This document shows positions 27,393 to 45,239 of a stretch of 64,000 bases of DNA, piece after piece (position 1 is the stretch's first letter; each line of letters starts with the position of its first letter). The notes beneath the pieces are model-generated. The model was not told the DNA's origin. It saw only the letters and a program-made list of their open reading frames with translations, and made no database searches. The DNA comes from Actinomycetota bacterium. GTDB taxonomy: Bacteria > Actinomycetota > CADDZG01 > WHSQ01. The stretch lies in NCBI GenBank assembly GCA_009380005.1, contig WHSQ01000003.1:11224-75223 (forward strand), given 5' to 3'. The translations under genes and the position numbers were made by a program.

Positions 27393-27403
27393 CCGACCCA
27401 GGC

Positions 27404-27410
27404 TAGCGTA
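27404..27410. promoter_or_regulatory. Symmetric -10 element (TAGCGTA) between the two duplicated modules
   Basis: TAGCGTA reads TAGCGT on plus and TACGCT on minus, both TANNNT. The plus copy ends 7 nt before the GTG at 27416, ideal for a leaderless transcript. The minus copy ends 12 nt before the ATG at 27392. Only 23 bp separate the two starts, so a single bidirectional promoter driving both modules is the simplest reading. Confidence 0.45.
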
Positions 27411-27415
27411 GGGGC

Positions 27416-29140: not shown

Positions 29141-30874
29141 TTGGCTAAACGCGTCCTAGCCATACTCGTCGCGGCCGCTGTGGTCGCGGCGGCGGGCGCC
29201 GTGGCGCTTCGGCTCCGGCGCGCCGCAGAACTGGACGGGCCGAGCCAGGCCATCATGGCGAAACAGGCCGGCTCCGACGTCATGGAACACGTCTACCGCG
29301 GGCACGTGGAGGGACGATCCGGCGAGATCTACCTCGTGCCTCGGCCTCACTTCTACATCGTGCCGGGCACCCTCGCCGACCTGCGGAAGCTCTGGACGGA
29401 CGAGCCCGTGTTGATCAACTCCCACCCGAACCCATGGGACTACCTGACACGCGTCCCGATCATCATGAACGGTGAGAGGTGGGCCGAGCCCGGCGTCACC
29501 AACTACGACGTGGTCGACATCGCCGACGTACCCGCCACGTACGCCGAGCTCCTCGACATCGAGACCGAGCAGCAGCTGGACGGCGAGCCGCTTCCCGGCT
29601 TCGATACGTCCGGACCGGATCCCAAGGTCGTGTTCACGGTGGTGATCGACGGCGGCGGGTGGAACGTGCTGCAGCAGCATGTCTCGGCTCATCCGTTCAT
29701 CGATTCGTTGCGTGCGGGCGGGACCACCTACATGAACGCGACGATCGCGTCGGCTCCGTCGATCACCGGCGCGCTTCATGCCACGTTCGGGACCGGCGTC
29801 TATCCGAACAAGCACGGCCTGCCCGGCAACCAGATGCGAGGGCCGGACGGCGAGAACACCGATGCGTGGCGCGACGCCGCGGATCCTCGTTACATGGAGG
29901 TTCCGGCCGTCGCCGAGCTCTGGGACGAACAGCAGGAGAACCGTCCCGTCGTTGCCACCATCTCGTACGAGGGATGGCATCTCGGGATGATCGGCCATGG
30001 CGCTCAGCGCGACGGCGGCGATGAGGACATCGCAGCCCTGTGGGAACAGGAGCCCGGGGAGTGGTGGATCAACGAGAACTACTACCGTCTTCCGCGCGCC
30101 ATCGAAGAGACCGATCTCGAGCGTCTCGAGTCGTACGAGGAAGAGCTCGATCCGCGCGACGGGTTGGCCGACGGGTCGTGGTTCGGCCACGAGTTGGAGT
30201 ATCTGCAGGAGCCGATCGTACGTCCCGGTACTCCGGCGTTCGTTCGCTTCACCGGCGACGCCGTGGTCGACATGCTGCGGGACGAGGGCATCGGCACCGA
30301 CGACGTCACGGACTTCGTCTGGATCGAGATGAAGATGCCCGATTACGCCGGCCACGCGTGGAACATGATCAACCCCGAGCAGGGTGACGTCCTGCGCGAG
30401 ACCGACCGTCAGCTCGCTCGCTTCAAGGACGAACTCGATCGGCTGGTAGGCGCGGGCGACTACCTGTACGCGGTCAGCGCCGACCACGGTCAACAGCCGC
30501 TGCCTGACCTCCTGGGCGGATGGCGCATCAACCAGAAAGAGATGGAGGATGACATCGCCGACGCCTTCGGAGACGTGCTCGAGAAGTCGACGCCGGTCGA
30601 TCTCTACGTCGACCGCGACGCGATGGAAACAGAGGGCGTCGGCCTTGACGACATCGCCCGCTTCCTCGGGGCTTACACGATCGGGGACAACATCCCCGAC
30701 GACGCGCCGGGGGCCGATCGGGTACCGGAGGAGTGGCTGGACGAGCGGATCTTCGTCGGCGCCTTCTCGACGGACTACCTCCTCGGCTTGGATCCGGACG
30801 CGATCGAGGCCTTCGGAGACGGGGACCATCCGGAAGGGCGTCTCACGATCGGCTCCGACGGCGGAGGCGGATAG
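29141..30874 (+). CDS. Circularly permuted alkaline-phosphatase-superfamily phosphodiesterase-like protein A
   Basis: 577 aa with an N-terminal membrane anchor (about 5-22), probably facing outside. The residues that bind two zinc ions in type I phosphodiesterases are all present, but in rotated order. The block EGRSGEIYLVPRPHF, then H95 in NSHPNPWDYLTRVP, comes first; it is normally C-terminal. Then D170 (VVIDGGGWN), the Ser/Thr nucleophile region APSITGALHATFGTG (near 206-219), D401/H405 (PDYAGH) and D448/H449 (ADHGQQ). It should hydrolyse a phosphate mono- or diester. TTG start with GGGAG 6 nt upstream. It is downstream of the permease/TIGR03943 pair and 9 nt before an MFS gene. Confidence 0.83.
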   Translation: MAKRVLAILVAAAVVAAAGAVALRLRRAAELDGPSQAIMAKQAGSDVMEHVYRGHVEGRSGEIYLVPRPHFYIVPGTLADLRKLWTDEPVLINSHPNPWDYLTRVPIIMNGERWAEPGVTNYDVVDIADVPATYAELLDIETEQQLDGEPLPGFDTSGPDPKVVFTVVIDGGGWNVLQQHVSAHPFIDSLRAGGTTYMNATIASAPSITGALHATFGTGVYPNKHGLPGNQMRGPDGENTDAWRDAADPRYMEVPAVAELWDEQQENRPVVATISYEGWHLGMIGHGAQRDGGDEDIAALWEQEPGEWWINENYYRLPRAIEETDLERLESYEEELDPRDGLADGSWFGHELEYLQEPIVRPGTPAFVRFTGDAVVDMLRDEGIGTDDVTDFVWIEMKMPDYAGHAWNMINPEQGDVLRETDRQLARFKDELDRLVGAGDYLYAVSADHGQQPLPDLLGGWRINQKEMEDDIADAFGDVLEKSTPVDLYVDRDAMETEGVGLDDIARFLGAYTIGDNIPDDAPGADRVPEEWLDERIFVGAFSTDYLLGLDPDAIEAFGDGDHPEGRLTIGSDGGGG

Positions 30875-30883
30875 GTTGCCGGC

Positions 30884-32179
30884 GTGGGCATGATCAAACA
30901 GGCGCTGGGCCTCGTCCGGAGCTCGCGCGATTTCGCCCTCCTGCTCGGAACCCAGGTGTTCGCGCAGGCCGGCGATGGGATCGTCCAGGCCGCCCTCGCC
31001 AAGTACATCGCCTTCGGAGGCCAGGAGGGCTTCGATCTCGAGGGCGCTCGCTCACCGGACGAGCTTCTGCGGATCGCGCTCTACATCTTCGTGCCGTACA
31101 CGATCCTCAGCCCGTTCTTCGGCGTGGTCATAGACCGTTGGGATCGACGTCGTCTCCTGTTCCTGGCGAACGGTCTGAGGGCCGTGGTGGTCGCCCTCAT
31201 CGCGTTGTGGGGCATCGGCCGGACCGGCGACGTCGCGCTGTTCGCCGCGTTCCTGCTCACGCTGTCGTCGACCCGGGTGGTGCTCGCGACGAAGGCCGCG
31301 GCCCTCCCGGCAACGCTGGGCGGCAGGGATCTGGTCATCGGTAACGCGGTGTCCCAGATGCTCGGCGCCATGTTCCAGATCGCGGGCGTCGCCTTCGCAT
31401 TCATCGCGGCCGGCCTCGTCGAGGTCGCACCCATCGTCATCATCGGCTGCGTCGTATATGGGATCGGCGCCGCCCTCGCGTTGTCGATGCAGCGGGCCGG
31501 AGAACATGTCGTCAAGAGCGGCCTCGGCCGAGAGATCGCGCGCGTCGCCGCCAACATCGCTGCGGGGATCCGAGAGGTCGCACAGCATCCGAAGGCTGCA
31601 GCTTCGATCACCACCTACTTCTGGTTGCGCCTGTTGTGGAGCTTCGCGATCGCGGCGGTCGGTTTCGTTGCGCGAGAGCTCCTGACGGATGACAACTTCG
31701 CCATCGCGATCCTGACCGGGGGCGCGCTGGCGGCCGGCGGAGGTTTGGGCTTCCTCCTGGCGCGGTCGCTGCACGAACGCGCTCGTACCTCGGCCCACCT
31801 CGTCGTCGGGTCCGCGATCGTGGCCGGCGTCGCGATGCTGGTCCTCGGCCCCCTCAAGTTCCAGGCGGGCATCGCGCTGTTGATGTTCTTCCTGGGTCTC
31901 GGGTTCTTCCTGGGCAAGATCTCCCTGGACACGATGGTGCAGGAGGCCCTGGGCGACGACTTCCGGGGGCGTGCGTTCTCCCTCTACGACATCTCCTACA
32001 ACCTGGCCTGGGTGGCGGCTGCCTCCATACTCAAGATCTTCTGGGCGGATGAGGGACAGAGCGTCTTGCTCTCCGGCATGGGCCTCGTGTTCCTGATCGG
32101 GGTCGCCATCCTGGCGGCGTGGTACCGGCGCGCCGGGTTGTTCACCCTGACCGTACCGAGTGGGGGAAGCGGCCCATAA
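30884..32179 (+). CDS. MFS transporter
   Basis: 431-aa, 12-segment major-facilitator protein with motif A-like GVVIDRWDRRRLLFLANG after TM2 and a long first extracytoplasmic loop (about residues 40-65, GGQEGFDLEGARSPDE). Similarity is to the same broad DHA3-like group as the protein at 6766, but they are not close. It lies between two permuted phosphatase-family genes and its TAA overlaps the proposed ATA start of the next one, so the three are probably translated from one message. Substrate unknown; lipid or phospho-compound export is only a guess from context. Confidence 0.83.
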   Translation: MGMIKQALGLVRSSRDFALLLGTQVFAQAGDGIVQAALAKYIAFGGQEGFDLEGARSPDELLRIALYIFVPYTILSPFFGVVIDRWDRRRLLFLANGLRAVVVALIALWGIGRTGDVALFAAFLLTLSSTRVVLATKAAALPATLGGRDLVIGNAVSQMLGAMFQIAGVAFAFIAAGLVEVAPIVIIGCVVYGIGAALALSMQRAGEHVVKSGLGREIARVAANIAAGIREVAQHPKAAASITTYFWLRLLWSFAIAAVGFVARELLTDDNFAIAILTGGALAAGGGLGFLLARSLHERARTSAHLVVGSAIVAGVAMLVLGPLKFQAGIALLMFFLGLGFFLGKISLDTMVQEALGDDFRGRAFSLYDISYNLAWVAAASILKIFWADEGQSVLLSGMGLVFLIGVAILAAWYRRAGLFTLTVPSGGSGP

Positions 32180-33807
32180 AGAGCAGCACCGGGCGTATCG
32201 CGCTGGTCGTTCTGGTCTCCCTGGCCCTCGGGCTCGGTGCCTACGTCGGCGTGGGACGTCTCATCGAGGAAGACGTCCCGGGGTTCAGGGAGCAGGCCTG
32301 CAGCCTGCCGCGCGAGTGGCTCGAGCTCACCCGGCGTGGGCATTTCGAAGCTCGGTCCGGCCAGATCTCGCTGCTTCCTCGGACGCCGGCGTACATGCAA
32401 CAGGGCAGGAGTGGGTGGAGCCATTCCGGGCCGTGGCCGTACCTGCAGGACGTACCACTGGTTTTCTACGGACCGGGGGTGCTCGACGAGGGCGTCGAGG
32501 TGGATCGCCCGGTCGACCTCGCCGACGTGGCGCCTACGATGGCCACGTTGCTCAAGGGAGGCCTGGCCGCCGACGGCGCCTCCCTGGACGAAGTCGCCAT
32601 GGTGGACGAGGAGTTCGTCACCAGGCCGAACCTCAAGCTGATCGTCACCATCGTCTGGGACGGCGGTGGATGGAACACCTTGCGCCAGTGGCCCGACGAC
32701 TGGCCGAACCTGAAGGCCATGATGGAAGGGGGCGTTACCTACACGGCTGCCACCGCCGGATCGTCGCCGTCGGTCACGCCGGCGGTGCACACGACGATCG
32801 GTACGGGCTTCTATCCGGCGACGCACGGTGTCACCGGGGTCCCGGTCCGAGATGAGGAAGGCGAGGTCGTCGACGCCTTCCTCGACGGCGAGTCCTCTCG
32901 GTTCATCCAGGTGCCCGCGCTCGCCGAACGGTGGGACGTTCAGAACGGCAACGAGGCGCTCGTCGGTATGGTCGGCTACGAGCCGTGGCACCTCGGCATG
33001 ATCGGCAAGGGGGCCGAGTCCCAGGGCGGCGACAAGGATCACGCCGCGTGGCTGAACGTCGAGACGAACGAGTGGAAGACGAACGCCGACCACTACGAGT
33101 TGCCGCGATCGCTCCGCGAGACCGGCGGGCTCGAAGAGGATCTGGACGAGCTGGATGCGGCGGACGGTGCCCGCGACCGCGCCTGGGGGCCGCACGCGAT
33201 CCTGGACGACCCATCCCGGATCGAGGAAACGCCCGCCTTCATCCGCTATCACACGCGCGCCATGCTGAACTTGCTGGAGCAGGAGGGTTACGGGGACGAT
33301 GACATCACCGACCTACTCTTCACCAACTACAAACAGATAGATCGCGTCGGGCACTACTTCAACATGGCATCGGATGAGGTTCGCCAATCCTTGGTCGAGA
33401 CCGACGACCAGCTCGGGGTGATCCTCGATCATCTGGATCGCGACGTCGGCCGAGGTCGCTACGCGGTCGTGCTCACGGCCGACCACGGCCAACAGCCCGA
33501 CGCCGGGCCGATCGACGGCTATCCGATCGATCCCAACGAGGTCAAGGCAGATATCGCCGGACGTTTCGGACCGATCGTGAGGGCCGTATGGCCCACGGAG
33601 GTCTTCCTGCTGCCCGATGAGATGGACGAGCGCGGCGTTACCGTTGAAGACGTCGCGCGTTTCCTGAGCGGCTATCGCCTCCGGGACAACGTCAAGGGTC
33701 CCGCCGCCCTCTACAAATCCGCGGGCTCGTTCGGGCCCTCAAGCAGGCTCTTCGACCTCGCGATCCCGGCGGCGATCCTCCCGGGGATGTCCTGTGGGCC
33801 CGGTTAG
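32176..33807 (+). CDS. Circularly permuted alkaline-phosphatase-superfamily phosphodiesterase-like protein B (non-standard start likely)
   Basis: About 543 aa, membrane-anchored at its N-terminus. Same rotated motif order as protein A: RRGHFEARSGQISLLPRT, then H83 in WSHSGPWPYLQDVPLVFYGPG (normally C-terminal) and VDLADVAPTMATLL. Next come D162 (IVWDGGGWN), SSPSVTPAVHTTIGTG, QIDRVGHYFNM (D..H) and TADHGQQ. No ATG, GTG or TTG lies between a GTG at 32119 and the membrane segment. An ATA at 32176 overlaps the upstream stop (ATAA), has GGGGGA 8 nt upstream and aligns with the start of protein A. AUA initiation is therefore proposed; GTG 32119 would add 19 residues inside the MFS gene. Confidence 0.8.
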   Translation: MKSSTGRIALVVLVSLALGLGAYVGVGRLIEEDVPGFREQACSLPREWLELTRRGHFEARSGQISLLPRTPAYMQQGRSGWSHSGPWPYLQDVPLVFYGPGVLDEGVEVDRPVDLADVAPTMATLLKGGLAADGASLDEVAMVDEEFVTRPNLKLIVTIVWDGGGWNTLRQWPDDWPNLKAMMEGGVTYTAATAGSSPSVTPAVHTTIGTGFYPATHGVTGVPVRDEEGEVVDAFLDGESSRFIQVPALAERWDVQNGNEALVGMVGYEPWHLGMIGKGAESQGGDKDHAAWLNVETNEWKTNADHYELPRSLRETGGLEEDLDELDAADGARDRAWGPHAILDDPSRIEETPAFIRYHTRAMLNLLEQEGYGDDDITDLLFTNYKQIDRVGHYFNMASDEVRQSLVETDDQLGVILDHLDRDVGRGRYAVVLTADHGQQPDAGPIDGYPIDPNEVKADIAGRFGPIVRAVWPTEVFLLPDEMDERGVTVEDVARFLSGYRLRDNVKGPAALYKSAGSFGPSSRLFDLAIPAAILPGMSCGPG

Positions 33808-33808
33808 G

Positions 33809-35860
33809 ATGCCGCCCTCCATGACCCACGACACCTTGACCGAACGCGCCCGGGAACCATCGGGACCCGGCGCCACCGCCCGGCCCCCTGCGCAACGTCC
33901 GGCCCATCCCGCCGCCATCCTGGCGACGGCGGGGGTCCTGCTGGCCATCTTCGGGTGGACCTTCGTGACCAACCCGGAGCGCGTCGCTCCGACGAAGGAT
34001 CCCGCCTACTACAACTGGCGGACCGAGGCGTTGATCTCGGAGGAGCCTCGGACCCTCCTCGAGCTCGAGGGGGCCTTCGAGATGTTCGCCGGCGGTTACC
34101 GGGTCGCCGCTCCCGTCATCGGCGGTCTGCTCCGGCAGATCCCGAGGGTCTCACAGCTCAACGTCACCATCGTCTTGATGATGGTGGTCCCGGTTCTGAC
34201 CTCGTTGCTCCTGGCCGGGTTCGCCTACCGGCAGCTGCGCGACCCGCTCGCCTTCCACGCGGTCGCGTTCGGCGTCGCGAGTCTGTATCTGGCCCCGCCG
34301 TTCGTCGGTTACCTGGACAACGTCTTGTGTCTGATGTTCCTCGCCGCCTCGTTGCACTTCATGCGGGGCACGCGTGATTCGTGGGCGATGCGCATCGCCT
34401 TCGGTGGCGCGCTCCTGCTTGCGGGCTTCACTCACCCCACGACGCTGGTGATCTTCTGTCTCACGTTGGGTTTGATCGCCGCCCTGCGGCTCGTCTTTCG
34501 TCGCTTCGACCTGAAGGGCGTGCTTCGGGACGACGGTCCGATGTTGCTCACGGCTTTCGCCGCCGCCGGGCTCACGGCCGTCATATGGACGGTCGGGATC
34601 TGGGGGGTGAGCGCGTCGCTGACCGAGTCGGCCCTGCCCCCGCCGTACGGGAGCGCTTTCTTCCTGGCACGGATGCTCGACTGGATAGCGGCCATGCGTC
34701 CCGCGTTGAACCTGCCGCTGCTCGCCCTCGGACTGGTCGCGGTGCTGCTCGGGGGGCGTCGCTGGATCGAGAACGACCTATCGGCCGTCTCCATCGCGTG
34801 GCTGGCTCCGTTGGCCGGCTCGCTGGGCTTCGTCGCCGGGCTCGCCTTCCCCTATTACCGATTCTTCAACACGACGCTCGCATGGGTCCTCCTCGTCGGC
34901 GTGGGGATCTTCGTGGCGACGAGGTTCTTCCTGCTGATCGCGCAGCGCGGTGGGTTCAATCGTCTGGCGCTTCTGGGCGTCGTGGCGATCGTCCTGGTGA
35001 TCGCCACGAACTTCACGACGCAGTTGAGGCTGTCGGGTTGGAACGATCCGAAGAAGGGTTGGCTGTCCTCCGTCCACAAGCAGGACCTGATGGCGCTGCG
35101 CTCGAACCTGGAGGCTCGAGCGACGGAAGACACCCCGGTGGTCTTCGTCATCGACGACGAGCCCGCCCGTCCGTTCCAGATCTGGGGCTTTACGAAGCTG
35201 TCGGGGAACACGTCCCGCTTCGGGATGCCGTCCGGCCAGATCGATCGCGCCTACCTCTACCTCGGCTCGCTCGAGAACTATCTCGCCGGCGTGCCCACCG
35301 AGAGGGGCGAGGAGACCTACGACGAGCTGTCGCCGGCCCTCCTCGAAGATGCCGAGGCCGGCATCGAGGCCTCGGGAGAAGAGCCCATCCCGGTGGTCGC
35401 CCGGATCTTCAACCTGAAGGGAGCGAACGCAGCGGTTGCGTCCGGAGAGGAGACCCCCTCGGTGGGGGCCGACGACTCCGTCTGGGTTCTGCGCGACGGG
35501 GCGGTCACGGAGGTGACGGGGGACGGTCCCGTGCAGCGCGGGGTGCTCGACGTTCAGGTGGCGTCGTCCGGCCCCCTCCACCTCGTCTGGGTCCTCATTG
35601 CGCTGACCGCGCTGCTGGTACCCGGGTACCTGTTGCTGCGCTGGGCCCTGCCCGATGCAGACCTGGCGGTGGCCGTCGGTATGGCTCCCGTCATGTCGAT
35701 CTCCGCGCTGACGCTGGTGGGGATAGCGATGCTGGCCGTGGCGCGCGCTCCGATGTCATCCCCGATCGCCTGGGCCACCGCGGCCATCGCCCTGGGCCTC
35801 GCCTGGGTCGCCGGCACGCGCGGACCTCGACGACGCGGCGAGAGCCCCGCTCCGGCTTGA
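33809..35860 (+). CDS. Large polytopic membrane protein of unknown function
   Basis: About 683 aa. Some 10 hydrophobic segments (residues ~35-420) are followed by a soluble domain (~430-585) and then three more hydrophobic segments near the C-terminus. The N-terminal part resembles the membrane core of GT-C-like enzymes (an early loop with NPERVAPTKDPAYYNW), but no catalytic motif is certain. It starts two bases after the upstream stop (ATG 33809; ATG 33821 also possible), and its stop overlaps the TTG of the O-antigen-ligase-like gene (TTGA). Place and company suggest envelope polysaccharide or glycolipid assembly. Confidence 0.72.
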   Translation: MPPSMTHDTLTERAREPSGPGATARPPAQRPAHPAAILATAGVLLAIFGWTFVTNPERVAPTKDPAYYNWRTEALISEEPRTLLELEGAFEMFAGGYRVAAPVIGGLLRQIPRVSQLNVTIVLMMVVPVLTSLLLAGFAYRQLRDPLAFHAVAFGVASLYLAPPFVGYLDNVLCLMFLAASLHFMRGTRDSWAMRIAFGGALLLAGFTHPTTLVIFCLTLGLIAALRLVFRRFDLKGVLRDDGPMLLTAFAAAGLTAVIWTVGIWGVSASLTESALPPPYGSAFFLARMLDWIAAMRPALNLPLLALGLVAVLLGGRRWIENDLSAVSIAWLAPLAGSLGFVAGLAFPYYRFFNTTLAWVLLVGVGIFVATRFFLLIAQRGGFNRLALLGVVAIVLVIATNFTTQLRLSGWNDPKKGWLSSVHKQDLMALRSNLEARATEDTPVVFVIDDEPARPFQIWGFTKLSGNTSRFGMPSGQIDRAYLYLGSLENYLAGVPTERGEETYDELSPALLEDAEAGIEASGEEPIPVVARIFNLKGANAAVASGEETPSVGADDSVWVLRDGAVTEVTGDGPVQRGVLDVQVASSGPLHLVWVLIALTALLVPGYLLLRWALPDADLAVAVGMAPVMSISALTLVGIAMLAVARAPMSSPIAWATAAIALGLAWVAGTRGPRRRGESPAPA

Positions 35861-37554
35861 ACCCGCCGGCAGCGGCCCCGAAGGTTCTCCGCGGGCTCGT
35901 CGCCCTCAGCCTCGCCGCCGGCATCGCGCTGTGGCTCGTCAGCGTGGTCTCCGGCGCCGTGGGCCCGGGCATCGCAGCGATGTGGTGCTTCGTGGCGGCC
36001 GCCGTCGCGCTGGGGCTCGTGCTTCCCTTCCGGCTGGCGCTCGTATCGCCGCTGTACGCGGGCGGACTCGCGTGGCTCGTCGACATGCTGCCGTTGGTGA
36101 TGCTCGCCGGATGGGCGACCGTGGTCGTGCGCTGGGCCGTGGAGTTGTGGCGCGAGCGCCGGTGGCCCGCGGGCGGGCGGTGGCTCTGGCTGCCGGTGGC
36201 GCTCACCGCGTGGACCGCACTCGGCGTCCTGGTCGTGCCGCGCTACGACATCCGCCACTTCCTGCTCCTGCTCGGCATCCAGGGACTGATCGCCGGGATC
36301 TGGCTCGCGGCGATCGACCGGCTGCAGCGGCTCGAGGATCGCGCGGCGGTGATCTCGGGACTGCTCGTGTACGTGATCATCATGACTACCGCAGTTTCCC
36401 TGCAGTGGATCGGCGTTCCCATCCAGGACCTCCAGAACCCCGAGATCAGCGATGTGGCCGAGGAGGCCTACGGCGTCGACGCGTTCCCAAACTCGATCGG
36501 GCTGATCAAGTACGCACGCTCCATACGTCCGGGTGACGACCGGCTGCAGTCGCGGCTCGATCGCCTGAGGGAGCGCACGCCCGGGATGCCGAAGGCTCGA
36601 GCGTTCCTCCCGCGGTTGCAGGCGTTCGAGAACCAGCTGCTCGTGCGGTTCTTGGGCGATGCGAGCGCGTACGAGGAAGAGCTGCGGCGACTGGATATCA
36701 CGCTCATCCACGACAACGTCGGCCTTGCTCCCGCCAACTCCGTCCCCCGCTTACGTTCGATCGCACGCAATGCCCTCACCTACGCAGGTATCGCGGCGGC
36801 TCTGCTGCCGCTGGCGTTCTACCTGGCATGGTCGGGGACCGACCGACGCAGGTTGATAGGCCGGCTCGGCGTGGCGGCGTGTCTGTTCGGGATCGCGATG
36901 TCTCTCGCCCGCGGCGCATGGGCCGCGGTCGCGATCGGCATCGTCTATCTCTTAGTGGACGGGCCGCTGGGTCGGACCCGCAAACGTCGAGTCGTGGCTG
37001 CGTTCCTGGCCACCGCGGTCCTACTGACCGGGTTCTTCCTGATCCGGTACCGCGTCGATCCGTTGACGGGAAGAGCCGGCGGCGGAGCCAGCGTCAGCAC
37101 GCGCGGCAGCCTCTACGAAGAGACCCTCGACGCCGTGAAGGGCATCCATATCGTCGTCGGTTTCGGTACCGAGCGGCCACGGACCGAGAGCGGGGGAGTC
37201 ACGGAAGGCGTTGCCGGCGGCAAGTACGTGCCGCGTGCGGGGACCCATTCGACATTCCTCAACTACGTCTTCCGAACGGGAGTGCCGGGCGCGCTGGCGA
37301 TCTTCGTCATCTACGCCCTGGCCTGGCTCCACTCCCGCGCCGCGGCGTGGCGGAAACGCGACGAGGAGCGATTGATGGCCACGATGCTGGCGACATCGGT
37401 CGTCATCTTCACCGCACATGCCGTGATCCTCAGCCTCTACGTCGAGCCCATCTACACCCTGACCATCAGCCTGCTGGTCGGGATGGCCATGGCATCGGGG
37501 CAGGGACTCGCCGGCCCCGTGTGGCCTCCGAAGCCGCGCCCGGGGAGGGTCTAG
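35857..37554 (+). CDS. O-antigen ligase/polymerase-like (Wzy/WaaL) membrane protein
   Basis: 565-aa polytopic protein with a large extracytoplasmic region (about 200-300) between hydrophobic segments and a second conserved area (about 420-465) reading STRGSLYEETLDAVKG, VVGFGTERPR and GTHSTFLNYVFRTG. The G-THS-FLN-GxxG pattern after the large loop is characteristic of the O-antigen ligase/polymerase family, where the loop binds the lipid-linked sugar. It starts at a TTG overlapping the previous stop and ends directly before the ATG of a flippase-like gene. A Wzy-Wzx pairing indicates a lipid-linked repeat-unit polysaccharide pathway. Confidence 0.85.
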   Translation: MNPPAAAPKVLRGLVALSLAAGIALWLVSVVSGAVGPGIAAMWCFVAAAVALGLVLPFRLALVSPLYAGGLAWLVDMLPLVMLAGWATVVVRWAVELWRERRWPAGGRWLWLPVALTAWTALGVLVVPRYDIRHFLLLLGIQGLIAGIWLAAIDRLQRLEDRAAVISGLLVYVIIMTTAVSLQWIGVPIQDLQNPEISDVAEEAYGVDAFPNSIGLIKYARSIRPGDDRLQSRLDRLRERTPGMPKARAFLPRLQAFENQLLVRFLGDASAYEEELRRLDITLIHDNVGLAPANSVPRLRSIARNALTYAGIAAALLPLAFYLAWSGTDRRRLIGRLGVAACLFGIAMSLARGAWAAVAIGIVYLLVDGPLGRTRKRRVVAAFLATAVLLTGFFLIRYRVDPLTGRAGGGASVSTRGSLYEETLDAVKGIHIVVGFGTERPRTESGGVTEGVAGGKYVPRAGTHSTFLNYVFRTGVPGALAIFVIYALAWLHSRAAAWRKRDEERLMATMLATSVVIFTAHAVILSLYVEPIYTLTISLLVGMAMASGQGLAGPVWPPKPRPGRV

Positions 37555-39138
37555 ATGTCTGGTCCGCCGGACCCGTTCCGCGATGAGGGCCTGACCCGGG
37601 GAGCCGCGGAAGACATCCGGACCGTGGCGAAGGGCGGCGCGGTCCAGATCGCGGGTCAGGTCGTCTCGAGGAGCCTGTCGTTCCTGTTCTACGCGGTGGC
37701 TTTCCGGCTCGTTGGCGTGGCCACCGTGGGCCGGTACCGCCAGGTCTCGCAGGCACTCACGATCGCCGGCCAGGTGGCGCTACTGGGCTTCAACTACGCC
37801 GCTATGCGCTTCATCGCCCGCGCCCGCGCCCAGGGGCGCCACGAGGAGGTCCGGGGCGCCATGCGCGTCGCCGTGACGGGCGTGCTGCTCGCGTCCCTCT
37901 TCGTGACGGTCGCGATCGTCGTCCTGGCGGAACCGCTCGGCCGTCTGTTCGCGGAAGAGGGACAGGATCCGGGAAGCATCGCGACCTTCTTCCGGATCGG
38001 CGTGGCGTACGTGCCGCTTTTCGCTCTCACACAGGTCCTTCGCTACTGCACCCAGGCCTACAAGACGATGGTGCCCTCGGTGATGGTGGGCGGGATCATC
38101 CAGCCGGTGGCGCGCTTCGTCTTCGGGATCGCGCTGTTGATCGCAGGACTCGCCGTCACCGGGCTACTCGCGAGCCTCGTGGTCAGCGTGGCCGTGGGGG
38201 CCGTGGCCGCGGCCTGGTACGTGCGCCGGATGCTGACGGAGGACGAACGAGCGGCATCCCCTCGGGCGGACGCCGGGGCGATGGTCCGCTTCGCCCTGCC
38301 GCAGGCGGGCGCGTCGTTGCTCTCGATCCAGGACCTCGGGCTCGGCATCATCCTGCTGGGCGTCTCCGGCACGGACCTCCAGGTCGGGGTGTTCACGGCC
38401 GGCCTCGCCCTCCAGGGCCCGGCCACCGTGTTCCTGGGCGGGATAGTCAACATCTGGGCCCCCGTGGTGAGCGATCTCCACGGCCGGGGTGAGATCGGGC
38501 GGCTCGGCGACCTCTACAAGACCATCAACCGCTGGGTGGCGACCTTCTCGTTCCCGGTGATCGCGGTGCTGATCCTCGAGGGTGATCTGTTCATCGAGCT
38601 CTTCGCGAAGACGAGGGATCCGTCCGCCGGGGCTGTCGTCGTCTGGTTGGCGATCGGCAACATCTTCTACACCGGAACGGGACCGACCGGCTACGTGCTC
38701 TCGATGACGGGGCGCCCCGGCGTGAACTTCATGAACTCGGCGGTGGGCGTCGCTCTCTACATAGTCCTCGGCCTCTGGGTGATCCCGGAGCACGGCGTCG
38801 TGGGGATGGCGATCGTCACGGCCGGCATCACCGCCGCCGTCAACCTCGCAAGGGTGATCGAGGCGAAGATCCTCGTCGGCATTCAGCCGTTCGGGCGAAC
38901 GTTCTACAAGCCGGTCGTCGCCACCCTGGGAGGAAGCGCCGTGTTGCTCGCGTGGCGACTCGTGCCCGGCGAGTCCATCCCCATCGAGATCGCAGGGATC
39001 CTCTTGGGAGCGCTCGCATACCTGGCCATCCTGAAGATGTTGGGCCTCGATCCCGAAGAGCGTCACGTCTACGACCGGATCCGTAAGCGCATGTTCCGGC
39101 GCTCAGCAGGCAAGGGAGGAGATGGTGATGCTGACTAG
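37555..39138 (+). CDS. Polysaccharide flippase-like protein (Wzx/MATE-like MOP superfamily)
   Basis: 527-aa, 12-14-segment membrane protein of the MOP flippase superfamily, beginning with IRTVAKGGAVQIAGQVVSRSLSFLFYAVAFR, a typical first-helix pattern (segment quoted in part). Members move undecaprenyl- or lipid-linked sugars across the membrane. The ATG follows the upstream TAG with no gap, and the 3' end overlaps the YjbQ-like gene by 11 nt. With the neighbouring ligase/polymerase-like gene it forms the export/polymerisation core of the cluster. Substrate not predictable. Confidence 0.87.
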   Translation: MSGPPDPFRDEGLTRGAAEDIRTVAKGGAVQIAGQVVSRSLSFLFYAVAFRLVGVATVGRYRQVSQALTIAGQVALLGFNYAAMRFIARARAQGRHEEVRGAMRVAVTGVLLASLFVTVAIVVLAEPLGRLFAEEGQDPGSIATFFRIGVAYVPLFALTQVLRYCTQAYKTMVPSVMVGGIIQPVARFVFGIALLIAGLAVTGLLASLVVSVAVGAVAAAWYVRRMLTEDERAASPRADAGAMVRFALPQAGASLLSIQDLGLGIILLGVSGTDLQVGVFTAGLALQGPATVFLGGIVNIWAPVVSDLHGRGEIGRLGDLYKTINRWVATFSFPVIAVLILEGDLFIELFAKTRDPSAGAVVVWLAIGNIFYTGTGPTGYVLSMTGRPGVNFMNSAVGVALYIVLGLWVIPEHGVVGMAIVTAGITAAVNLARVIEAKILVGIQPFGRTFYKPVVATLGGSAVLLAWRLVPGESIPIEIAGILLGALAYLAILKMLGLDPEERHVYDRIRKRMFRRSAGKGGDGDAD

Positions 39139-39535
39139 CGAGATCGACCTCGACACGTCCAACCGCCGCTTCGTCGACGTGACCCGCGAAGCCGAACGGT
39201 TCCTGTCGGAGGCCCGCGCCGCCGACGGACTACTGAACGTCTACGCGCCGCACGCAACCGCCGGCGTAGCGCTGATGGAGACCGGCTCGGGGAGCGAGAG
39301 CGACCTCGAGGAGGCGATCGATCGTCTGTTGCCGCGCGAGGACATCTACACCCACCGGCACGGCTCCAAGGGCCACGGAGCGGATCATCTGATCCCCGCC
39401 TTCATCTCCCCGTCGGTGACGATCCCGATCGTGGAGGGCAAGCCGGCGTTCGGAACGTGGCAGAGCATCGTCCTGGTGGACCTGAACCGCGACAACCCCC
39501 GGCGCAAGCTGCGCTTCTCGTTCCTGCCGGGGTGA
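39128..39535 (+). CDS. YjbQ/UPF0047 family protein
   Basis: 135-aa protein of the YjbQ (secondary thiamine-phosphate synthase-like) family. It has NVYAPHATAGVALME and the metal-binding pattern H..HGSKGHGADHL, followed by the TWQSIVLVDLNRDNPRRKL end motif typical of these trimeric proteins. The ATG at 39128 is preferred over 39122 because GGAGG then lies at normal spacing. It overlaps the flippase gene by 11 nt. E. coli YjbQ has weak thiamine-phosphate synthase activity; the true role is unknown and no link to the envelope genes is obvious. Confidence 0.9.
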   Translation: MLTSEIDLDTSNRRFVDVTREAERFLSEARAADGLLNVYAPHATAGVALMETGSGSESDLEEAIDRLLPREDIYTHRHGSKGHGADHLIPAFISPSVTIPIVEGKPAFGTWQSIVLVDLNRDNPRRKLRFSFLPG

Positions 39536-39551
39536 TCGCGGATACCGCCCG

Positions 39552-40451
39552 CTACCGGGATGGGCTCGATCTCAGCTTCGCGACCGGCGCTCCGGCCTTG
39601 CCGAGCGCGGCCAGCATCTTGGCCTTCCCGCTGGGGCTCGGGAACCGCCGTTCGTAGCCGAGCTCGCTCAGGGTGTCTCCTGCGACCGCCTCGAAGATCT
39701 CGACGTGCTCGTCGGGCATCTCCGTCTGCCAGGCTCGGACCGCATGCGGCTTCTCGGAGACGTGCGGGTTGAGCGTCTTGGCGCTGGGCAGCATCGCCGA
39801 GCGCGCCTTCTCGGTGTAATCCAGCATGTCCGGCTCGAACTCCAGGTCGATGAATTCGCACAACGTCTTCACCTCGCCGAGCGGGTCCTCGACCAGGTCC
39901 TCGTAGACGATCTCGATGTAGTGGCCGGGCTCCATCGATCGCCCTTCCTGCATCCCGATCCGCACGCGCCGCGCCCAGAGATCTGCCGCCTTGGCCACCG
40001 TCTTCGGCCCGAACGGGACGTCCGCGTAGCTGAGTGCCACGTTGCGCCCGTCGCGGACGAGATGAACGAACCTGGCGCCGGGGAAGAGGCTCAGGATCAG
40101 CGGCATGCACTCAATGTAGCGCGGGGTCTTGTCCCCCCACCGGCTCTTCCCATGGACGCGCGCCCACGCGTGGAAGGTGGCGTCGATCGCCTCGGCGAAC
40201 CTCATGCGGTCCCTATCGCCGATCTCCGCCCGCACGATGTGGACCGGCAGGTCCCACAGCTGGTAGCGCTTGTGGGTTGCCAGCTGCGTGAGGTAGTCGG
40301 TCACATCGATGTCGGCCTCGCCGGTCCAGAACTCGCAGATGAAGCGGGACTCGGGCGGCACCGCCACCCGAGAGTGCGCGTTCAGCATCAGGCGCAGCAA
40401 CGTCGTGCCGGAACGGGCGGAGCCGACGATGAAGAACGGTACGTCCGTCAT
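39552..40451 (-). CDS. PAPS-dependent sulfotransferase family protein
   Basis: 299-aa cytoplasmic sulfotransferase. The 5'-phosphosulfate loop is IVGSARSGTTLLRLMLNAH near residue 8 and the 3'-phosphate site FVHLVRDGRNVALSY near 126; WGDKTPRY is the usual block between them. It would transfer sulfate from PAPS to a hydroxyl of a carbohydrate or lipid. It lies 3 nt downstream of the sulfatase-like gene on the same strand, and near UDP-sulfoquinovose synthase and a sulfatase. A sulfated envelope glycan or glycolipid is a reasonable inference; the acceptor is unknown. Confidence 0.88.
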   Translation of the reverse strand: MTDVPFFIVGSARSGTTLLRLMLNAHSRVAVPPESRFICEFWTGEADIDVTDYLTQLATHKRYQLWDLPVHIVRAEIGDRDRMRFAEAIDATFHAWARVHGKSRWGDKTPRYIECMPLILSLFPGARFVHLVRDGRNVALSYADVPFGPKTVAKAADLWARRVRIGMQEGRSMEPGHYIEIVYEDLVEDPLGEVKTLCEFIDLEFEPDMLDYTEKARSAMLPSAKTLNPHVSEKPHAVRAWQTEMPDEHVEIFEAVAGDTLSELGYERRFPSPSGKAKMLAALGKAGAPVAKLRSSPSR

Positions 40452-40454
40452 CGG

Positions 40455-41687
40455 TCAGAGATAGCCGAGGTCCCGGAGGTGCTGTTCCACCAAGGCCTCC
40501 TCGTCCGAGGTCATCCCCGAGCCGGTGTGCTCGAGCGCGGTCGCGGAGATCTCGTCGACGAACGTCTCGAGGCGGTGAGCGACCTCCGGATGACGTGTCG
40601 CGACGTCGTGCTTCTCGTCCGGCGCCTGGCTCCCGTTCAAACGGTAGAGCTCGGAACGGGTCGAGCCCCGACGCAGCAGTTTCCAATCCGGCTCGCGCGC
40701 TCCGACTATGCGATCGCCCTCGAGTTTCACGCCGACGGCCTCCATGTACGCGGGTTCCTCCGGCAACGTCCCTCCCATCATCAGGGGAACGACGCTGCGT
40801 CCATCGATCGCCTGCGGTTCGGGCAGGTCGCACAGCTCTGCCAGCGTGGGGTACAGATCGACGTGTCGGACTTGATCCTGCACCTCTGTCGCGTTGATCC
40901 CCGGGCCGGCGATGATGAGTGGGACCCGCACCAGATGCTCGTGCAGTGCGAAACCGTGACCCACGGTCAATTCCGCCAGGCGCTTGTCCAGCGCCGGCAA
41001 CCACTTGCCGGTCTTGAGGGTGCCGCGCGCCCGCCGGGCGAGCCGGATCATCTTGTGCTGGAGCTTCGTCTCCGGGTACTCCTCGCCGTGGTCTCCGGTG
41101 ATCACGACGATCGTGTTGTCCGGAAGCGCTTCGAAGACCGGGCCCAGCCAACCGTCGGTGGCGCCGATGGCCGCCTCGTACCCGGAGCGATCCCAGCGCT
41201 TCTCGAAGTCCGGCGGGGCGCGATAGGGACGGTGCACCTCCCAGATGTGCAGGAGGAGGAACCACGGATCGACGAACCCGGCGAGCTTCTCGAGCACGTC
41301 GGCGCGCCAGTTGAAGAAGGGGACGCGGTAGGCCTGGCGATGGTTGGCGCCGGCGAAGCCGCGCAGCACGCCGGTCTCCGGAAGGAGGGGCCCCGTTACC
41401 TCCGCATGCGTCCCGTAACCGGCCTCGGCGAACGCCTCGGCCATCGTCTTCAGCTCCGAAGAGAGGGAATAGCCCTGCAAGCCCCGGACCCCGTGCCGGG
41501 GCGGGTAGCAACCGGTGAGCATCGAGGAAAACGAGGGGGTCGTGGACGTCGTGGTGGCCACCGCCTGGACGAAGTTCGCCCCGCTGCCGGCGTAACGATC
41601 CATGTTCGGCGTTGGCGGTACCGTCGAGTGGAGGGCGTCGGCTCGCAGGGAGTCGACGGCCAGGAAGAAAACGTTCGGCGCGCTCAA
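40455..41687 (-). CDS. Sulfatase-fold hydrolase without the formylglycine cysteine; LGYL tail
   Basis: 410 aa, no signal peptide seen. It has the sulfatase-family layout: NVFFLAVDSLRADAL (metal Asp), TTPSFSSMLTGCYPPRHG, VVITGDHGEEYPE and HEHLVRVPLIIAGPG. The nucleophile position, Cys in true sulfatases (C-x-P-S-R), is Thr here (TTPSF), and the Arg is Phe. It is therefore more likely a phosphoester hydrolase or phosphotransferase than a sulfate-ester hydrolase. It ends in EQHLRDLGYL, a tail shared with two other phosphodiesterase-like proteins in this window. TTG start at 41687. It is co-transcribed with the sulfotransferase gene. Confidence 0.82.
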   Translation of the reverse strand: MSAPNVFFLAVDSLRADALHSTVPPTPNMDRYAGSGANFVQAVATTTSTTPSFSSMLTGCYPPRHGVRGLQGYSLSSELKTMAEAFAEAGYGTHAEVTGPLLPETGVLRGFAGANHRQAYRVPFFNWRADVLEKLAGFVDPWFLLLHIWEVHRPYRAPPDFEKRWDRSGYEAAIGATDGWLGPVFEALPDNTIVVITGDHGEEYPETKLQHKMIRLARRARGTLKTGKWLPALDKRLAELTVGHGFALHEHLVRVPLIIAGPGINATEVQDQVRHVDLYPTLAELCDLPEPQAIDGRSVVPLMMGGTLPEEPAYMEAVGVKLEGDRIVGAREPDWKLLRRGSTRSELYRLNGSQAPDEKHDVATRHPEVAHRLETFVDEISATALEHTGSGMTSDEEALVEQHLRDLGYL

Positions 41688-41786
41688 TCGACCTCCGCTC
41701 GACTCCGGGACCCGCCGCCCAACCGGCTCAGCGTGTGCGTGCGCGTATCCTACCGGCGCTCCTACCTCGGCTCAGAAAGGCTGTCC

Positions 41787-42530
41787 GTGGACCGCTCCGT
41801 TCCGTCGCTCGACATCCTGGGCGTGCCCGTGGCACTCCTGTCGCGCGCCGAGGCTCTCGATCGGATCCAGGAGCTCTACGAGGCGCCCGGCACGTCCTCG
41901 GTCGCCTACGCGAACGCCCACGCCCTGAACCTGGCGTTCGAGGACGTCGAGTACCACAAGGTCTTGAACGCGGCGGCCCTCGTGCTGAACGACGGCGCCG
42001 GAGTGGCGATGGCGGCTCGGATGAAGGGCGTGCGGTTCCCCGAGAACCTCAACGGCAGCGATCTGAACCCCTTGATCGTCGAGCGTGCCGCCACGCAGGG
42101 ATGGCCGGTGTACTTCCTGGGGGCCCGCGACGGGGTCGCCGAGCGGGCCGCGGCGGCGATGCGAAGTCGATACCCGGGTCTCCAGGTGGCGGGGGTCCAC
42201 CACGGGTTCTTCCCGGAGACGAGCTCCGGGACGGTCGCGGAGCTCGTCCGGACGTCGGGGGCCGGGCTGCTCATGGTGGCGATGGGGAACCCGCGTCAGG
42301 AGCTGTGGCTCGCCGAGCATCTGCCGGCCACGGGGGCGAGCGTCGGCATCGGGGTCGGGGCGTTCTTCGATTTCTCGGCCGGCGAGGTGCCGAGGGCGCC
42401 CGCGTGGATGAACCGCGCCGGCATCGAATGGGTGTACAGGCTCGGTCGGGAGCCACGGCGGCTCTTCCGTCGGTACATGGTCGGTAACCCGACCTTCGTC
42501 GTGCGAGCCTGGCGCGATCGCAAGGTTTAA
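41787..42530 (+). CDS. WecG/TagA/CpsF family glycosyltransferase
   Basis: 247-aa GT26 enzyme. Relatives add ManNAc or ManNAcA (TagA, WecG) to lipid-linked GlcNAc early in teichoic acid or enterobacterial common antigen synthesis. Motifs are YANAHALNLAFED, the catalytic-region LNDGAGVAMAARMKG, NLNGSDL, VYFLGARDGVAE and VGIGVGAFFDFSAGEVPRAP, ending with the basic WVYRLGREPRRLFRRY membrane-association segment. The GTG has GAAAGG 6 nt upstream. It is divergent from the sulfatase-like gene. It is strong support for a lipid-linked polymer with a teichoic-acid-like linkage unit. Confidence 0.9.
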   Translation: MDRSVPSLDILGVPVALLSRAEALDRIQELYEAPGTSSVAYANAHALNLAFEDVEYHKVLNAAALVLNDGAGVAMAARMKGVRFPENLNGSDLNPLIVERAATQGWPVYFLGARDGVAERAAAAMRSRYPGLQVAGVHHGFFPETSSGTVAELVRTSGAGLLMVAMGNPRQELWLAEHLPATGASVGIGVGAFFDFSAGEVPRAPAWMNRAGIEWVYRLGREPRRLFRRYMVGNPTFVVRAWRDRKV

Positions 42531-44200
42531 CCCTGTTCCCTGCGTGCGCAGGACAGAGCCTCCTCGAGCTGCTCGGGCGTCAACGCGGTCAGGTACAAAC
42601 GCTGGTTCCGTCGCGGTTCGAACCTGGGCCTCAGCTCGTTCGTCGGCGACAGGTTGTCGTGGATGCGGTAGTCGCGGATGTAGGCGGCGATGTCCTCGGC
42701 CGTGAGGTCTTCCTTACGCATCTCGTCCTCGTCCAACCATATGTAGTAGCCGCGGTTGGATTGGACGATCGAGCGCGCCGGAGTCACCTTGTCGAACCTT
42801 TCGCCAAGGTCCTTGGTCACCTCTCGCATCTCGATCGACCAGCCGTCGAGCACCCGGGCGTACGGCTGCATCCCGTGGTCGGCGGTGAACGCCAGTACGT
42901 AATTGTCCTTGCCCACGAGACGATCCAAGCCCTCGACGATCTTCGGGATCTGCCGGTCCTGCTCCCGTACGACGTCTCGCATCTCCGGCTCTTCCATGTT
43001 CCAGAGATGGCCGGCCAGATCGGCGCTCTTGTAGTTCGTGTAGAAGAGGTCGGGCATCTCGTCCGCACCGAACCTCTCGTTCCGCAGTATCTGGAACATC
43101 CGTTCCGTTTGGTAGATGGGCCATGCCGGACCGAACCGGATCTCGCCGGTGTAGGGAAGCAACTGGTTGCCGAGCCATTCGTCGTCGTCCTCACCGTCGC
43201 GCAGGTCGATCTCGTCGATGGCTTCCTGCAGGCCTTCTTCGTTTTCCAGGTACTCCGGCATGTAATAGAACGGCGTCCGAGTGCGGAAGTTCACGTCCCC
43301 GAGGTGGTCGAACACCCCCAGGTCTGCGTCGCCGCCTTCCAGCTGAGCACCATGGCCGATCATCCCGGCGTGCCATGAATCGCGAGCGAAAACGCCCACG
43401 ATCGGCTCGTTGTCGTTGGCTCTATCCCACATATCGCCCAGCGTCTGGCGCTCGAGGTACCGAGGTGAGAAGCCTTGCCACGAGTCGATCATCGATCCCT
43501 TGATCCTGATCTTCGTGTCCGGCATCCCGTGCTTGTTCGCGAAGTCTCCGGTGCCGATCGTTGCGTGCACCGTGGGGGTGATCGATGGGCTCGACCCCAC
43601 GGTGGCTTCGGTGTAGCTGGCGCTGCGATCCATGAGCTGTTGAAGCTCGGGCCACGCGTCCGGCCACCTTTCCAGCACGTTGTCCCCGCCGCCATCCCAG
43701 ACGAGGGTGAAGATCAGACGCGGCTTACCGTTCCGTTGGGCCTTGGGCAACAGGGCTTCCTCGAGGACGCGCCCATCCCTCTTGCCGAACTCATCGGTGA
43801 AGTCCAGGAGCTCGGCGAACGTCGGGGCGAGGTCGGCGACGGTCACCGGTCGGTCGAACGTCGTCCCCCCCTCGATGTAGCCGGGTCCGTAGAGGAACAG
43901 AGGCACCTCCTGGGTGTAGGGCCACGGAGTCGCGTGGCGGTTGCCGTAGATCGCGGGGAACTGCTCGATCGTGATGATGTCGCCGGAGCGGCCGGGGTAA
44001 TAGCCCCTCCACATCCGCTCGAGCAACTCGAGAGGCACGTCGCAGGCATCCACGTCCGCCACGAGCGAAGGATCGACCTCGGGGATATCGTCGTCTCTGA
44101 ACCAGACGACCGACGCCGTGCCCGCCACGGCCACGACCAGGGTGGCGGCGAGCGTCCGGCGCAGTCGGCGCGCACGGGTGATGCTCGTCGTGGGGTTCAG
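42527..44200 (-). CDS. Circularly permuted alkaline-phosphatase-superfamily phosphodiesterase-like protein C (CTG start likely)
   Basis: 557 aa from the proposed start, with an N-terminal membrane anchor (about 15-34). Rotated motif order as in proteins A and B: YYPGRSGDIITIEQFP, then H89 in NRHATPWPYTQEVPLFLYGPG and VTVADLAPTFAELL. D169 (LVWDGGGDN), SSPSITPTVHATIGTG, SADLAGHLWNM (D..H) and TADHGMQ follow. A near-perfect GGAGGG lies 6 nt before a CTG at 44200; no ATG, GTG or TTG sits at suitable spacing. An ATG at 44281 would overlap the divergent glycosyltransferase start. It overlaps the 3' end of the WecG-like gene by 4 nt. Confidence 0.8.
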   Translation of the reverse strand: MNPTTSITRARRLRRTLAATLVVAVAGTASVVWFRDDDIPEVDPSLVADVDACDVPLELLERMWRGYYPGRSGDIITIEQFPAIYGNRHATPWPYTQEVPLFLYGPGYIEGGTTFDRPVTVADLAPTFAELLDFTDEFGKRDGRVLEEALLPKAQRNGKPRLIFTLVWDGGGDNVLERWPDAWPELQQLMDRSASYTEATVGSSPSITPTVHATIGTGDFANKHGMPDTKIRIKGSMIDSWQGFSPRYLERQTLGDMWDRANDNEPIVGVFARDSWHAGMIGHGAQLEGGDADLGVFDHLGDVNFRTRTPFYYMPEYLENEEGLQEAIDEIDLRDGEDDDEWLGNQLLPYTGEIRFGPAWPIYQTERMFQILRNERFGADEMPDLFYTNYKSADLAGHLWNMEEPEMRDVVREQDRQIPKIVEGLDRLVGKDNYVLAFTADHGMQPYARVLDGWSIEMREVTKDLGERFDKVTPARSIVQSNRGYYIWLDEDEMRKEDLTAEDIAAYIRDYRIHDNLSPTNELRPRFEPRRNQRLYLTALTPEQLEEALSCARREQG

Positions 44201-44264
44201 TGGGGGCCCTCCAGCGGGGTAGGCGACCGTAGCGGGCAAGTATCCCAGTCCGGCGGGCAAACGG

Positions 44265-44270
44265 TAGCCT
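44265..44270 (+). promoter_or_regulatory. -10 element TAGCCT for leaderless transcription of the GT2 gene
   Basis: TAGCCT matches TANNNT and ends 9 nt before the ATG at 44280, so the transcript probably begins at or just before the start codon. No Shine-Dalgarno sequence is visible before this ATG, consistent with a leaderless message. Confidence 0.4.
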
Positions 44271-44279
44271 GCCTGTCGC

Positions 44280-45239
44280 ATGGCAGAACGAGCTACGGCG
44301 GCGTCGGCCTTCATCATCGCGACCCGCAACCGCCCCGAGGACCTGGTCCGCACGGTCGAGAGCCTCGTCGCACAGACGGTCCTCCCGTCCGAGTTGTGCA
44401 TCGTCGATTCGAGCGATGCGACACCCACGCGCCCGCGGATCGAGGAGTTGTGCTCGGGGGCCGGGATCGAGCTCGACTATCACCATCCCGCTCCCCGGGG
44501 CCTGACCATCCAGCGCAACGCCGGAGTGGATCGGACGGAGGGCGATCCGGTCTTCTTCGTCGACGACGACGTGTGGCTCGCCGACGATTGTCACGAGCGC
44601 ATCCTGGAGGAGTACGAGCGAGGGTGGCCGAACCTGGGCGGCGTCAGGGCCGCTCCCGTGCGCCCGGCGCGTCCGGCCTGGTACACGCGGTCGTTCCGCA
44701 AGCTGTTCGGCTTGGGCGGATGGTGGCCCGAGGCCAGCGGCAGGGTGCGGCCCGGGTTCTACGTCGAGGGGATCTCGGAATCGTTGGGACCTCGCCGCGT
44801 CGAGTACTTCAACGGCTGGTTCATGTCCTACGCGCGCGAGGTGTTCGAGCACGAGTGCTTCGATGAAGCGCTGGCAGGCTACGGTTTCAAGGAGGACATC
44901 GACTTCTCCTACCGCGTCGCGAAGCGCGGGTATACGTTGGTGCAGACGCCGAAGGCGAAGTGCGATCACCTGAAGAGTGCTTCGGCGCGCCTCGACTCCC
45001 ACAACCTGCAGCGCATGAACATGGCGAATCAGTTCTACCTTCACCGCAAGAACATGCCGCAGTCGACCAAGTACAAGGCGGCGTTGTGGTGGGCGTGGGT
45101 CGGGCTGTTCTTGCTGAACGCCGGCAAGGCCCTGCGCGTGCGCGATCCCGGCCTCGTGACGGGACTGGTCGAGGGCGCGTTCGAGCAGGCGCGCGGCAAG
45201 GGGCTCATCGATCCGCCGACGCAGGCGCCGAAGACTTGA
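44280..45239 (+). CDS. GT2 family glycosyltransferase
   Basis: 319-aa GT2 enzyme: AFIIATRNRPEDLVRTVESL start, CIVDSSDATP, GLTIQRNAGVDRT (nucleotide-sugar region) and the metal-binding FFVDDDVWLADD. The acceptor-side block GYGFKEDIDFSYRVAKRG is of the type seen in rhamnosyl- and galactosyl-transferases of surface glycans. A C-terminal hydrophobic stretch (AALWWAWVGLFLLNAG) may attach it to the membrane. Its stop overlaps the TTG of the CDP-alcohol phosphotransferase gene (TTGA), making a coupled trio with the following phosphodiesterase. Confidence 0.9.
   Translation: MAERATAASAFIIATRNRPEDLVRTVESLVAQTVLPSELCIVDSSDATPTRPRIEELCSGAGIELDYHHPAPRGLTIQRNAGVDRTEGDPVFFVDDDVWLADDCHERILEEYERGWPNLGGVRAAPVRPARPAWYTRSFRKLFGLGGWWPEASGRVRPGFYVEGISESLGPRRVEYFNGWFMSYAREVFEHECFDEALAGYGFKEDIDFSYRVAKRGYTLVQTPKAKCDHLKSASARLDSHNLQRMNMANQFYLHRKNMPQSTKYKAALWWAWVGLFLLNAGKALRVRDPGLVTGLVEGAFEQARGKGLIDPPTQAPKT

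Follow-up and report, generated by a model that had tools for sequence, protein, structure and literature searches.

Predicted circular permutants of the alkaline phosphatase superfamily in Actinomycetota

An Actinomycetota genome encodes three proteins that are very probably natural circular permutants of the PafA/PhoK branch of the alkaline phosphatase superfamily (probability about 0.96 for the permutation alone, judged from sequence). It is highly likely that the rearrangement and a working two-metal site coexist in these proteins. The kind of superfamily is well known, and to our knowledge one chain order is common to every described branch. No circular permutation in the superfamily was found described in the open-access literature, Pfam or NCBIfam, nor any family with the order reported here, as the earlier note on this DNA had supposed in calling the family distinct; within that literature, the chain order appears to be undescribed.

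Proteins with the last metal-binding block first

The genes lie in the 64,000 nucleotides of contig WHSQ01000003.1 (assembly GCA_009380005.1, positions 11,224 to 75,223, forward strand) that were analyzed as a whole, here called the window. Coordinates of the proteins A, B and C and of a decayed paralogue, D, are window positions. X denotes the relocated last block, C1 the Asp1/nucleophile segment, and C2 the segment with the D-x3-H and D-H motifs.

29141..30874, + strand: protein A, 577 aa, TTG start, N-terminal hydrophobic anchor, order X-C1-C2
29288..29575, + strand: block X of A (RSGEI ... H95 ... VP ... DVPAT), metal His H95 at codon 29423-29425
29627..30500, + strand: core C1-C2 of A, with D170 (29648), nucleophile T209 (29765), D401/H405 (30341/30353) and D448/H449 (30482/30485)
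32119..33807, + strand: protein B, permuted, 562 aa from GTG 32119; the true start could be a later codon
32299-32301 and 33793-33795, + strand: terminal Cys pair of B, Cys61 and Cys559
32299..32562, + strand: block X of B, metal His H102 at codon 32422-32424; matches PafA 443-519 and a PhoK-like THGSPW
32632..33510, + strand: core of B, with D181 (32659), T220 (32776), K405 (33331), D408/H412 (33340/33352) and D455/H456 (33481/33484)
42527..44428, - strand: protein C, permuted, 633-aa ORF with an internal ATG at 44314 and an N-terminal anchor helix
44042-44044 and 42548-42550, - strand: terminal Cys pair of C, Cys129 and Cys627
43800..44044, - strand: block X of C, metal His H165 (ORF numbering) at codon 43934-43936; matches PafA 434-519 and PhoK 452-547
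42860..43720, - strand: core of C, with D245 (43694), T284 (43577), invariant K467 (43028), D470/H474 (43019/43007) and D517/H518 (42878/42875)
26130..27422, - strand: decayed permuted paralogue D, X and half of the core, both terminal Cys retained

All three proteins match the type I phosphodiesterase/NPP profile PF01663 above its cut-off (A 2e-26, B 4e-29, C 3e-24). This profile presumes the canonical order, whereas the matches start only at residue 166-242 and stop at profile positions 229, 223 and 302 of 342 for A, B and C, respectively. Block X, ~95 residues long and lying ahead of the match, is complete and consists of a helix, an RSG-D/E/Q-I strand, H-x(2-3)-PW-x-Y, a VP strand and a D-x-APT helix. 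The earlier note had proposed such an out-of-order block in A, B and C, and its motifs are all where it placed them, with X ahead of the core; the D-x-APT motif holds overall except in A, which reads D-V-P-A-T. As for the nucleophile of A, given there as S207/T209, it is T209 that stands and S207 that falls, since the PafA T79S entry (5too) alters the Thr aligned with T209. A, B and C are secreted or membrane-anchored and would face outward from the membrane. The genome holds five intact permuted copies and the decayed sixth, two of the intact ones (L004 and L008) lying beyond the window.

Homology and rotation of the chain

Protein B matches PafA in permuted order (phmmer), with residues 170-247 on PafA 16-95 (i-E 0.038), 389-468 on 275-354 (6.6e-10) and 70-148 on 443-519 (0.002). 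For C, residues 448-585 fall on PafA 272-413 and X (129-211) on 434-519, the latter with an i-E of 0.075, and a further segment (235-303 on 17-87) scores 0.2 bits, which alone is not significant. A yields two core segments only, its X being below threshold. Among solved chains, the equivalents of X are PafA 434-519 and PhoK 452-547, the C-terminal block in both enzymes. X is thus homologous to that block, and the order is X-C1-C2 rather than C1-C2-X.

The rotation proposed in the earlier note is also borne out by a scan in which the start point of 37 homologues was slid round the circle and each version was globally aligned to a canonical PafA (L159) and a PhoK-like protein (L161). Scores peak at a shift of 100-120, the X/core junction, where the mean rises from 171 to 227 against PafA and from 204 to 276 against the PhoK-like protein; at the native order the score does not exceed that of the median shift. 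In the controls PhoK-PafA and PhnA-PhnA the maximum is at about shift 0, and the distant PhnA-PafA pair is uninformative. Global alignment was used since single-domain HMM scores on rotated profiles are uninformative, HMMER splitting the match locally.

HMMs for X, C1 and C2 found the order X-C1-C2 in 97 ORFs of the fetched loci, none of which repeats an X-like block at its C-terminal end; a lone C1-X match is a conventional sulfatase. In the A, B, C family the last His is therefore not near the C-terminus, as the canonical order would have it; homologous segments are rotated instead, with no copy in the old place, and the chain stops about where the PafA block would start. Nearly all permuted homologues come from metagenome-assembled genomes. 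An assembly artefact is ruled out by the identical order in dozens of independent assemblies, and a frame error or gene fusion by the intactness of each ORF.

A phylogenetic tree places the permuted family (UFBoot 100) beside PafA/PhoK (98). PafA (5tj3) and PhoK/SPAP (3q3q, 5xwi) are its closest relatives by sequence, tree and fold search, and share with it the same seven positions and the RSGD...H-x-x-PW-x-Y...VP block. The permuted family differs from them in its N-terminal X, a new invariant Lys, the terminal Cys pair and the membrane anchor. Against the NCBIfam PafA model (NF042991), A, B and C reach 82-109 bits, below the curated cut-off of 650, with the match broken into three pieces (A and B) or two (C). 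No protein in 247 Actinomycetota genomes exceeds this cut-off, and the best matches are members of the permuted family. Phosphonoacetate hydrolase (PhnA) has weak core similarity to the permuted proteins, but it has the canonical order and is a structural outlier of the superfamily via insertion, not permutation (PMC3779223).

New chain ends and paired cysteines

In a permuted chain, the short linker from X to C1 would join the old ends, and the new ends would fall past the strand downstream of the D-H region and ahead of the helix leading into the RSGD strand (~437-455 in the canonical PafA of L159). Most members carry one Cys near each terminus. Among 88 distinct full-length proteins, 61 have both, 27 (A included) have neither and none has a single one, and the 61 paired proteins have no Cys elsewhere in the body. 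With the terminal columns left out of the tree, the pair changes jointly twice on it and never separately. A disulfide linking the new ends would produce this paired-or-absent pattern, so such a bridge is probably present in most members, and the cysteines fit rejoined chain ends. The independent evidence is modest in amount, though all of it points the same way.

Catalytic residues and gene neighborhood

Across 73 divergent homologues (30-58% identical to C), H53, D133, D358, H362, D405 and H406 (A3 numbering) are invariant and T172 is kept in 72, which agrees with the completeness of the seven catalytic positions described in the earlier note. These correspond to the zinc ligands and nucleophile of PhoK, His491, His304, Asp300, His346, Asp345, Asp49 and Thr89 (PMC3145672), and compose the D, T/S, D, H, D, H, H set of the superfamily. 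The N-terminal His of X, present in 73/73, aligns with the last His of PafA and PhoK. The only invariant histidines are H53 in X, H176 (four residues after the nucleophile, equivalent to PhoK His93), H362 and H406; a C-terminal His therefore cannot serve as ligand. The fold would close as usual, the same seven side chains would hold two metals and a Thr nucleophile, and the Thr would form the phospho-enzyme. From these residues we infer that A, B and C are very likely active enzymes.

In PhoK, Asn110, Lys171 and Arg173 bind the monoester phosphate, and Lys171, Arg173 and Tyr301 obstruct the diester R' site of NPP enzymes (PMC3145672). The Asn110 equivalent is Asn in only 12/73 permuted homologues, and W-H-L-G-M replaces the stretch with Lys171 and Arg173 (K-x-R), leaving Thr alone of the PhoK-class signature (PMC3145672). 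The absence of Lys171 and Arg173 equivalents suggests a phosphodiesterase or transferase. All 73 permuted proteins carry a Lys (K467 in C, 43028-43030) at the third position upstream of the D-x3-H Asp. The PafA and PhoK-like references lack this Lys, which is a candidate replacement for the phosphate-binding Lys171.

The surroundings of the genes are conserved as well. In many genomes C stands in the series PDE - CDP-alcohol phosphotransferase - GT2 - C - WecG - sulfatase - sulfotransferase, and A and B recur in the series ArsP-type permease - DUF1980 - A - MFS - B - membrane protein - Wzy - flippase. Taken with the lost monoester residues, the glycan and phospho-alcohol neighbors favor action on phosphodiesters of surface glycans or lipids. 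A role as envelope diesterase or transferase on such phosphodiester-linked groups is a tentative assignment, to which we give slightly less than even odds. That the permuted proteins are instead PafA-like phosphate monoesterases scavenging phosphate is somewhat unlikely: their nearest canonical relatives, PafA and PhoK, are monoesterases and the new Lys could stand in for Lys171, but the three phosphate-binding residues are not conserved and the neighbors are not phosphate uptake genes.

Two further features of these clusters were observed. The pair of an ArsP_1-type permease and a DUF1980 (YcgQ-like) protein at window positions 27416-29097 is conserved directly before A; such pairs are linked to metal handling, and this one may bear on zinc supply. 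The conserved cluster of C also contains superfamily members of canonical order, a sulfatase and a PF01663 protein, at 40455-41687 and 45787-47574.

Distribution

Full-length members occur in 35 of 397 sampled Actinomycetota genomes. These fall in four family-level groups (f1, f9, f51 and f58), with all 16 genomes of f1 positive, and the family is absent from the sampled genomes of other families in the same class. Within the reach of its two peptide patterns, a scan of 84,980 species, one genome per species, gave matches only in records titled Actinomycetota/Actinobacteria or unclassified bacterium. A phage search gave no matches to the family, and the permuted order was not found in plasmids, where matches were only to canonical-order PafA, PhoK-like and PhnA genes, some of them used here as references. 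Throughout one actinobacterial lineage the rearrangement is fixed.

A second permuted family and two-domain proteins

Distant matches led to a second family of ~490-520 aa, EHGS (L090-L092, L102, L105-L107 and L182-L184), in which X (GEHGSLxVVQSRAPL...VDVAPT) again comes first and the chain stops at the strand after the D-H region. No variation occurs among the ten aligned members at the seven positions or at the NPP-type Asn, and the PF01663 match starts at residue 203-231. Rotation raises the alignment score against the canonical protein of L128 from 133-170 to 239-290. The AlphaFold2 model (pLDDT 89.8, pTM 0.91) is nearest to the solved NPP3, NPP1 and Xac NPP. EHGS thus shares the Asn with its closest solved relatives, Xanthomonas NPP and mammalian NPP1/NPP3, but has X at the N-terminus, and its breakpoint is unlike that of A, B and C. 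EHGS occurs in 11 of 397 genomes, in six family-level groups other than those of the A, B, C family. Its members have no obvious signal peptide and are possibly cytoplasmic. In L101-L104, EHGS adjoins an opposite-strand ORF (VPHTHWDREWYEP), which we take to resemble a glycosyl hydrolase family 38 mannosidase.

The two families are cut at different places, since the strand that matches residue 438 of the L159 PafA lies at the C-terminal end in the A, B, C family and at the N-terminal end in EHGS. The tree places the A, B, C family with PafA/PhoK (98) and EHGS elsewhere. The EHGS permutation is probably independent, and two origins are favored. A single permutation event giving rise to both families is doubtful: X is joined to C1 in both, and the full-length rotated alignment does not reject a common origin (AU p 0.0715), but core-only columns do (AU p 0.027), and the opposite placement of the residue-438 strand, the different solved relatives (PafA/PhoK and NPP) and the separation on the tree all argue against it.

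Three proteins of 1181-1343 aa have two cores and two X blocks, in the order X1-C1b-C2b-X2-C1c-C2c:

L121, 716-4744: two-domain protein
L122, 2074-5616: two-domain protein, ending in an Ig/carboxypeptidase-regulatory-like tail
L123, 1121-4948: two-domain protein

Ligands are present in each core. X1 with the c core aligns end to end with EHGS and groups with it (100), and the b core with X2 groups with the canonical single-domain protein of L097 (100). Such an arrangement could be a stage in permutation by duplication, or the result of inserting a canonical domain at the joint of a permuted one.

Paralogues without ligands

Paralogue D has lost the metal Asp (now LKG), the nucleophile Thr and the His of X. 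Ligand-less paralogues of this type adjoin A in several genomes, and in the homologues read the metal Asp is changed to Lys:

L027, 1471-2922, - strand: D-type homologue
L031, 1-969, - strand: D-type homologue
L038, 3-1067, - strand: D-type homologue
L064, 2734-3882, - strand: D-type homologue

The D-type paralogue would be a conserved pseudoenzyme, perhaps a partner of A or B. Its retention despite lost ligands, together with the loss of the phosphate-binding N, K and R of PafA/PhoK, could mean that the whole family is permuted but catalytically dead or repurposed for binding. We consider this improbable, given the invariant metal ligands, the near-invariant Thr and the equally invariant Lys before the D-x3-H Asp.

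Predicted fold

AlphaFold2, given 73 sequences, folds the stretch of C encoded by 42530-44092 into a single confident domain (mean pLDDT 95.2, pTM 0.94). The best solved matches of this model (Foldseek) are PafA and then PhoK, with PhnA and NPP also found, placing the predicted model in the superfamily fold; PafA itself aligns with a TM of no more than 0.53 (rmsd 8.3 Å) when sequence order alone is followed, a value that fits a rotated chain and is not proof of one. This low whole-model TM and the modest X-PafA similarity of each single protein could also arise if X were an added domain of separate origin, or a partial duplicate, in front of an ordinary core with its own diverged C-terminal His. 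That reading is very improbable against a single-domain model, a rotation-scan maximum at the X/core junction, a chain that ends about where the PafA block would start, no homologue with a second X-like block and no invariant His left at the C-terminus.

Implications

For the study of how enzymes on one scaffold change function, the alkaline phosphatase superfamily is a textbook case. Natural permutation of its chain means that the metal site tolerates a chain break separating the last His from the D-H motif. It also accounts for the clipping of A, B and C by profile tools, which miss the last ligand, and the paired cysteines offer a built-in test. Taking the observations together, we think it reasonably likely that at least two permutations of the superfamily occurred in Actinomycetota, at different breakpoints and in different branches (PafA/PhoK-like and NPP-like), that one lineage acquired a terminal disulfide, and that the two-domain X-C1-C2-X-C1-C2 proteins preserve the duplication step or a nested derivative. 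EHGS and the two-domain proteins could make the origin of natural permutations testable with living intermediates.
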